Positions 6,920 through 7,883 of a stretch of DNA of 43,335 nucleotides are shown here, one piece after another (the first letter of the stretch is position 1; each line of letters begins with the position of its first letter). The stretch is from a virus, in the IMG/VR virus record IMGVR_UViG_3300047472_000280, positions 1 to 43,335 of that record, one strand, 5' to 3'. The notes under the pieces are model-generated. The model made no database searches. It had not been told where the DNA came from and saw only the letters and a list, made by a program, of their open reading frames with translations. Both the position numbers and the translations under genes were made by a program.

Positions 6920-7132
6920 CTAGTTTGTAATCACGCCGTCTTTGATTCCGAGGAGCACAGCTGCTCGATGCGCTTCACCTCGTAGGCACTTTTTCTGCCC
7001 GTTCAAAACTGCGTAAACAGTTGAGGGGTGGAGACCGTTTTGGATTGAAAAATCCTTAACGGAGATTCCCTGTAACTCCAGTCGCTTTCTTGCGTCCTGG
7101 CAGGCTTGCTCGGGTGCATAGGTGGCGTGCAT
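6920..7132 (-). CDS. Cro-type helix-turn-helix protein (BcepMu gp16-like)
   Basis: This 70-residue DNA-binding protein is divergent from the repressor gene. The helix-turn-helix is at about 25-46 (VKDFSIQNGLHPSTVYAVLNG), followed by the KKCLRGEAHRAAVLLGIKDG tail that marks the BcepMu gp16-like family of phage regulators. As first gene of the lytic/early operon it occupies the place of cro or cox in P2-like phages. The perfect TTGACA at 7193-7198 (minus) overlaps the operator repeats, so both regulators can control this promoter. No clear Shine-Dalgarno precedes the ATG at 7130-7132. Confidence 0.8.
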   Translation of the reverse strand: MHATYAPEQACQDARKRLELQGISVKDFSIQNGLHPSTVYAVLNGQKKCLRGEAHRAAVLLGIKDGVITN

Positions 7133-7216
7133 AGTTCAGATTCGTGTGATTTCGCGTAATGTTGTGATGATATTGGTTCATATAAGTGAACCTGTCAACG
7201 TTAGAGGTTCAAAAAT
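7133..7216. promoter_or_regulatory. divergent operator-promoter region of the lysis/lysogeny switch
   Basis: This 84-bp region lies between the Cro-type and CI-type genes. A perfect inverted repeat GGTTCA-TATAAG-TGAACC spans 7175-7192, and a third half-site GGTTCA is at 7206-7211. On the minus strand TTGACA (7193-7198) abuts the dyad, with CAATAT 17 bases further as a weak -10. On the plus strand TATAAG within the dyad (7181-7186) could be the -10 of the repressor promoter. Repressor bound to the dyad would block the early promoter. Promoter boxes are by eye. Confidence 0.6.
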
Positions 7217-7543
7217 ATGACCATTGGCGAGCGGCTGAAGGAAGAAAGGTCGCGCTTGGGGCTCAGCCAGACTGATTTGGGTGCTGCTGGCGGTGTAGGA
7301 AAAACAACTCAGATCAATTACGAGAAGGACGAAAGAAGCCCTGATGCAAAGTACCTGGCTGCGGTCAAGCCTTTGGGAGTAGATGTGTACTACGTGCTGG
7401 TGGGGGAGCACTTTCCAGTATCGCCAGATCAACTTTCGCCGTTCGAACTCGAAGTGCTGTCGTATCTCGAAGAACTCACGGACTACGACAAAGAAACACT
7501 CCGTCGAATGGCCGCTGCGATGGCGGCGGTGGCAAAAAGCTAA
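7217..7543 (+). CDS. CI-type repressor, short, no peptidase domain
   Basis: This 108-residue XRE-family regulator is the probable prophage repressor. Residues 1-65 form a Cro/CI helix-turn-helix domain (GERLKEERSRLGLSQTDLG, then KTTQINYEKDERSPDAKYL, ending GVDVYYVLVGE). Residues 73-105 form a predicted helical oligomerisation tail (LSPFELEVLSYLEELTDYDK). There is no S24/LexA-type peptidase domain, so RecA cannot induce it by self-cleavage and SOS induction needs another route. AGAGG at 7203-7207 is the likely ribosome site. The gene ends before an intrinsic terminator and the LexA-box gene. It is similar in size and place to P2 C. Confidence 0.85.
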   Translation: MTIGERLKEERSRLGLSQTDLGAAGGVGKTTQINYEKDERSPDAKYLAAVKPLGVDVYYVLVGEHFPVSPDQLSPFELEVLSYLEELTDYDKETLRRMAAAMAAVAKS

Positions 7544-7599: not shown

Positions 7600-7630
7600 A
7601 AAAAAGCTCAGCCCAGGCTGGGCTTTTTTG
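7600..7630 (+). terminator. intrinsic terminator after repressor
   Basis: The hairpin AGCCCA-GGC-TGGGCT at 7610-7624 is followed by a run of T to 7629 and preceded by a run of A. It separates the repressor transcript from the SOS-controlled gene. Confidence 0.85.
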
Positions 7631-7672
7631 TTTCCGATTGTCAGCCCCATTGGCGAAATCGCTCCGGAAATG

Positions 7673-7692
7673 TACTGTATGCACATACAGTA
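7673..7692. promoter_or_regulatory. LexA (SOS) box
   Basis: TACTGTATGCACATACAGTA is a perfect 20-bp palindrome apart from the centre and matches the consensus CTGTAT-N4-ATACAG exactly. It lies 17 bases before the ATG of the 57-codon gene at 7710 and downstream of a terminator, so it must control that gene. Damage-induced loss of LexA would switch the gene on. Confidence 0.92.
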
Positions 7693-7709
7693 ATGGAATA
7701 TGACAAGCG

Positions 7710-7883
7710 ATGGAACCAATCCGCATCCACTCCTACCTGAAGACCACCGAATTTGCTGCAGTTGCGCCCCTCACGAAACTGGAGCTTGAACTGCTCACCA
7801 AATATCGGCGGCTGTCTTCGGATGATCAACAGCGGGTTCTGGCAGTCCTGCAGGCCATGGCATCGCTCAACCAAGTGGAGTGA
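7710..7883 (+). CDS. SOS-controlled small protein, candidate antirepressor
   Basis: This frame of 57 codons (MEPIRIHSYLKTTEFAAVAP...) sits directly under the LexA box, between the repressor and gene D. Residues 21-56 align without gaps to repressor residues 73-108. Ten positions of the first 33 are identical and many others conservative, including ELE/LL, the central L and the AMA triplet. In P2-like phage 186 and Fels-2 the LexA-controlled Tum protein inactivates a repressor that RecA cannot cleave; this gene has the same place and control. The resemblance suggests it could pair with the repressor tail and break its oligomers. Function is inferred. No good Shine-Dalgarno is visible. The frame ends in TGA 53 bases before the end of gene D. 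Confidence 0.65.
   Translation: MEPIRIHSYLKTTEFAAVAPLTKLELELLTKYRRLSSDDQQRVLAVLQAMASLNQVE

Follow-up and report, generated by a model that had tools for sequence, protein, structure and literature searches.

The P2-like prophage analysed here (the window, the whole 43,335-base virus record) carries beside its short immunity repressor a 57-codon gene with a fully matched LexA box in front, whose product is homologous to the C-terminal two-helix hairpin of that repressor. This protein is probably an SOS-induced antirepressor, which would mimic the pairing tail of the repressor and, as a decoy, enter mixed complexes with it. The function is suggested by the architecture of the locus together with the solved precedent of SinI and SinR (PMC3163267).

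The PHROG families matched in the window include an integrase, a primase, an Ogr-type regulator, two tail proteins, a terminase and a capsid protein. The repressor gene and the small gene are two plus-strand genes flanked by minus-strand early genes on one side and the minus-strand tail gene D on the other (Table 1). The first-pass annotation had placed a LexA box ahead of a 57-codon gene and downstream of the terminator of the repressor gene, and this arrangement is what we find; the box does precede the ATG, but its end is separated from it by 19 bases and not by 17 as claimed. The putative promoter overlapping the box shares its TTGGC(G/T)AAA element with most relatives. The position of the small gene is fixed: it is the last gene before gene D on the repressor side, even where a cargo gene of about 600 bases is inserted. 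This cargo, found between the repressor and the LexA box in L016, L017 and L019-L023, encodes a protein of 188-189 residues with a signal-peptide-like start; the L019 copy matched no PHROG at a threshold of 1e-5. In other lineages this site after the repressor is occupied by different cargo.

Table 1. Features of the repressor and small-gene locus, in window positions, and predicted folding leaders of other lineages, in positions of the named loci
Feature	Position	Strand	Basis
Divergent HTH gene in the Cox position	6920..7132	-	PHROG 925, HTH DNA binding protein
Operator-like palindrome GGTTCA-N6-TGAACC, between the repressor and the divergent early genes	7175..7192		Sequence reading
Immunity repressor, 108 aa: HTH (residues 1-64) and two-helix tail	7217..7543	+	Pfam, PHROG, AlphaFold
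Repressor tail (residues 73-108), counterpart of the small-protein hairpin	7433..7540	+	Profile comparison, AlphaFold
Terminator-like inverted repeat AGCCC-AGGCT-GGGCT with T-run, after the repressor gene	7600..7629	+	Sequence reading
Promoter-like TTGGCG-N17-TACTGT, overlapping the LexA box	7650..7678	+	Sequence comparison, by eye
LexA box CTGTATGCACATACAG	7675..7690	+	Pattern search, conservation
Small gene, 57 aa, candidate SOS-induced antirepressor	7710..7883	+	ORF, purifying selection
Repressor-tail-like hairpin, small-protein residues 21-53	7770..7868	+	hhalign, AlphaFold
Leaders predicted to fold, lineages lacking the box	L026:4332-4411, L027:2344-2423, L034:3727-3806, L054:3374-3453, L062:3477-3556, L088:2912-2991		z of -1.1 to -3.7

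The small gene is a real coding gene. Its nonsynonymous divergence is lower than the synonymous one in all 91 pairwise comparisons (pN 0.23, pS 0.59), and the hairpin is the most constrained part (ratio 0.28), the N-terminus being less so (0.59). Pfam and NCBIfam contain no fitting named family for the small protein, and the window protein is unmatched in both. Members of the family match PHROGs, none with a named function; one of these, PHROG 23693, matches 14 of 39 members. A direct sequence search of 50,697 phage records with the small protein returned no match, and a structure search with its model alone, which is too short, gave no confident match in the PDB.

The repressor matches the Pfam family HTH_3 (E=1e-5) and the PHROG class of transcriptional regulators. 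Its meaningful Pfam matches are all HTH families, with no S24 peptidase domain among them, so the protein is without a self-cleaving domain, like the partner repressors of LexA-controlled antirepressors. The earlier description of a 108-residue repressor lacking such a peptidase thus holds, the protein consisting of an HTH domain and a two-helix tail only, with tail helices at residues 75-85 and 89-107 in the AlphaFold model. In a Foldseek search with the repressor, SinR as it occurs in the SinR-SinI complex took second rank, aligned over 109 columns; with the stricter VIA-align the match is limited to the HTH domain, and the tail lies outside it.

The resemblance between the small protein and the repressor tail was originally described as a gapless alignment with ten identities, a count that we reproduced by hand for residues 21-53 against repressor residues 73-105. 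Since the two window proteins are only weakly similar in a pairwise BLAST alignment (E=0.01), the homology was examined at the family level. Some seeds of the wide-family alignment had first been picked by likeness to their own repressor tail, and we therefore rely on two one-sided profile tests. A tail profile built only from repressors outside the window clade was searched against 5,279 six-frame ORFs of the collected loci; it recovered repressors, 39 small genes and three other ORFs, one of which is the small gene of L073, absent from the earlier small-gene set. The window small protein scored 24.4 bits with this profile (E=5e-6 over the 5,279 ORFs). The reverse profile, made exclusively of small proteins of the window clade, matched 19 repressors as well as 19 small proteins from other lineages, and no further sequence among the same ORFs at E<0.1. 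In 399 Pseudomonas genomes, the window-clade small-protein profile detected two close relatives plus a dozen weak sites, of which three are short-repressor tails (L115, L121, L122) and three are small genes near a short repressor (L114, L120, L124).

Profile-profile comparison with hhalign is consistent with these searches, with a probability of 96.5% and P=1e-9 over 44 gapless columns. The mean score of cognate pairs is +33 in register, falls to between -14 and -32 when the register is shifted by one to five positions, and is -22±8 for shuffled positions. In the AlphaFold model of the small protein, helices at residues 23-33 and 37-53 form a hairpin corresponding, at the alignment offset of 52, to that of the repressor, whose last helix runs two residues beyond the match. 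Could the likeness be the ordinary pattern of a helical hairpin, the gene being an unrelated SOS effector or untranslated? The low similarity between the two window proteins when aligned as a pair would fit such a reading, which we nevertheless regard as highly improbable: the excess of synonymous change holds in every pair and is strongest precisely at the hairpin, one register alone scores, and with the family profile no sequence of a PDB set exceeds 18.5 bits, a value surpassed by about 15 of 36 repressors through their tails. Taken together, the profile searches, the single register and the matching predicted hairpins support the view that the likeness noticed in the first-pass annotation reflects true homology to the repressor's C-terminal hairpin.

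The LexA box is a fully matched CTGT-N8-ACAG with 7-bp arms and the sole occurrence of this pattern in the window. A loose box is expected 0.51 times by chance in 43 kb, so its presence alone is not significant; we nonetheless accept it as real because its position is conserved in all relatives of the gene. It is perfect in 14 distinct gene sequences of the window clade, at a distance of 35 bases from the ATG (34 in one sequence and 36 in another), with variation confined to the box centre, and it keeps its placement before the small gene where the cargo intervenes after the repressor. The strict form CTGTAT-N4-ATACAG occurs in four and six copies in two whole Pseudomonas genomes with this prophage type, while a reversed control pattern has no copy in either. 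One of the strict sites in each genome is that of the small gene, and other sites precede homologues of yebG, PA0069 and umuD across the two genomes, the names yebG and umuD denoting DNA damage and translesion synthesis. The conserved box, together with the rarity of its strict form genome-wide and its location at homologues of SOS genes, supports the proposed control by LexA, and the small gene would in this respect resemble the LexA-controlled phage antirepressors, which have a LexA operator in front. Outside the window clade, boxes are also present in L072, L077/L078 and L075, which are separate lineages; that of L075 is less certain, being farther upstream, at 107 bases from the start.

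Among the collected viral contigs, a matching small gene lies downstream of 42 of 58 distinct short repressors (L061 is counted at only E=0.013), so the gene pair recurs in related prophages. Most of the remaining short repressors either come from contigs that break off early or have tails of a few other types. The LexA box is perfect in 18 of the 42 (all 14 from the window clade, plus L072, L075, L077 and L078). As 24 small genes are without a perfect box, triggering by SOS is not general in the family. Two further candidates were not retained as members: a 38-residue Citexvirus gene, a weak match that we do not claim, and the gene after the repressor of Burkholderia KL3-type phages, which does not match the family. 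In the latter phages the repressor is followed by a LexA box with one mismatch (CTGTATATCCATCCAG, L089:3029-3044, with counterparts at the equivalent position in L092 and L093) and then by a gene of about 91 codons (91 residues in KL3). Separately, in Escherichia phage 520873 (L095), a 55-residue ORF starts 15 bases past the repressor stop and echoes the different C-terminal motif of its repressor (NNRIAGRDY / NNRVAGRDF), possibly as another tail copy.

The tail distances between repressors correlate with the distances between their small proteins (0.77), and the correlation remains at 0.76 (p=0.0005) after removal of the HTH distance. Joint inheritance of the two linked genes could account for part of this correlation. 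Over 31 positions, small proteins share 8.1 identities with the cognate tail vs 7.7 with non-cognate tails, a small excess (p=0.07 for all pairs, p=0.02 for 14 lineage representatives). The idea of a duplication-derived copy therefore stands as far as homology to the tail goes but fails for a recent local duplicate: a fresh duplication inside this phage is ruled out, the cognate similarity being barely above the non-cognate one. These distances fit an old split followed by joint evolution, with the small genes forming an old and widely kept family and any duplication being ancient.

The slight advantage of cognate pairs (p=0.02-0.07) is a counterpoint to the decoy, and it would suit a protein directed mainly at other repressors, such as the tails of co-resident prophages or XRE regulators of the host, in which case the outcome would be cross-talk and not self-induction. 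The antirepressors of the Gifsy phages work across prophages (PMC3121763), and small proteins with the same hairpin are encoded on Pseudomonas chromosomes (L116:1420-1611; L117:1420-1611, LSDDERQLVEHYRSLSAEDRNALHCLLNAMGSVSRF; L118:1495-1806, minus strand), where no short HTH repressor was seen in the surroundings. We consider cross-talk as the main role distinctly improbable, given that in the window clade the gene always adjoins a short repressor with a matching tail and that tail and small protein change together beyond what the HTH domain accounts for.

The closest structural precedent for a decoy acting on its own repressor is found in Bacillus subtilis, where SinR is a tetramer joined by C-terminal two-helix hooks, and SinI, which shares the hook, displaces one SinR partner, breaks the tetramer and abolishes DNA binding (PMC3163267). 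Like the window protein as predicted from sequence and models, SinI is a small antirepressor homologous to the C-terminal helical hook of its partner, an HTH repressor some 110 residues long, with which it forms mixed dimers (PMC3163267). It differs in being controlled by Spo0A and not LexA, and in serving no phage immunity switch. The SinI family PF08671 has no match in the window and is not among the families matched by the 39 members. By analogy, LexA bound to the promoter-overlapping box would keep the small gene off in the lysogen, and the short repressor, oligomerised through its C-terminal hairpin, would keep the early promoters down. Upon DNA damage, LexA would be destroyed and the small protein made; its hairpin would then replace that of a second repressor, and the resulting mixed complexes would lose the operator, leading to prophage induction without cleavage of the repressor.

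The same interaction might instead aid the repressor: by binding the tail, the small protein could act as a co-repressor, or as a brake by which immunity is restored or tuned once damage has occurred. Tail homology predicts mixed complexes and does not by itself say whether these are active, and small phage co-repressors exist, such as Lxc of P1 (PMC11323111). Against this stand the nearest structural precedent, in which the complex is inactivating (PMC3163267), the lack of a DNA-binding domain in the small protein, and the LexA control, which would boost repression just when prophages normally leave; we deem a co-repressor unlikely.

Antirepressors that are controlled by LexA and act on uncleavable repressors are established, examples being Tum, AntC and those of the Gifsy phages (PMC3121763). 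The GfoA, GfhA and GftA proteins of Salmonella Gifsy phages, compared here by description only, are likewise small, LexA-controlled and directed at short uncleavable phage repressors; in contrast, their genes are not in the immunity region but follow LexA-controlled dinI-homologue loci, their complex is 2:2, and the description as available makes no reference to tail copying (PMC3121763). Tum of phage 186 is a LexA-controlled antirepressor of a P2-like phage but is reported to have 146 residues with a DinI-like C-terminal half (PMC3121763), whereas the window protein lies beside the repressor and lacks that half. Its size of 57 residues and its domain content, with no Pfam or NCBIfam match, rule out identity with Tum as there described. 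The small antirepressor of an arbitrium phage in PDB 9iaq, an entry matched by Foldseek to the window repressor and known here by title, also targets a phage HTH repressor, but the phages are arbitrium-controlled. Qtip and the TF-smORF modules are small proteins that inactivate phage cI non-proteolytically; unlike the window protein, they do not depend on SOS, are driven by quorum sensing or by transcription factors, and are described as lacking homologues (PMC10432266, PMC11323111). Tail mimicry and a LexA trigger are each known, and their combination is unreported in the searchable literature, which is incomplete. In that same literature we found no report of the small-gene family in P2-like phages and, in agreement with the first-pass annotation, no P2-like phage described with this design.

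In lineages that lack the LexA box, many leaders are predicted to fold with an upstream ACUCC paired to the Shine-Dalgarno GGAGU and a nested hairpin enclosed between the two (Table 1). The inner stem shows paired changes in five of six pairs. The leaders of L029 and L079 do not clearly fold in this way, and a comparison of the non-SOS leaders with Rfam gave no match. We give about an even chance to a broader proposal, in which P2-like prophages share a widespread family of repressor-tail decoys under interchangeable locks, either a LexA operator or a leader hiding the Shine-Dalgarno, so that the trigger would be swappable and the effector constant. If the folding is confirmed, some phages would use RNA to silence the same decoy for which others would use LexA.

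To our knowledge, the induction of P2-like prophages with short uncleavable repressors is mostly unexplained outside phage 186. The candidate antirepressor provides a concrete and testable induction route for a large group of Pseudomonas-type prophages and offers an explanation for a conserved small gene (PHROG 23693). It would also extend to phage immunity the principle of repressor-tail mimicry exemplified by SinI and SinR.
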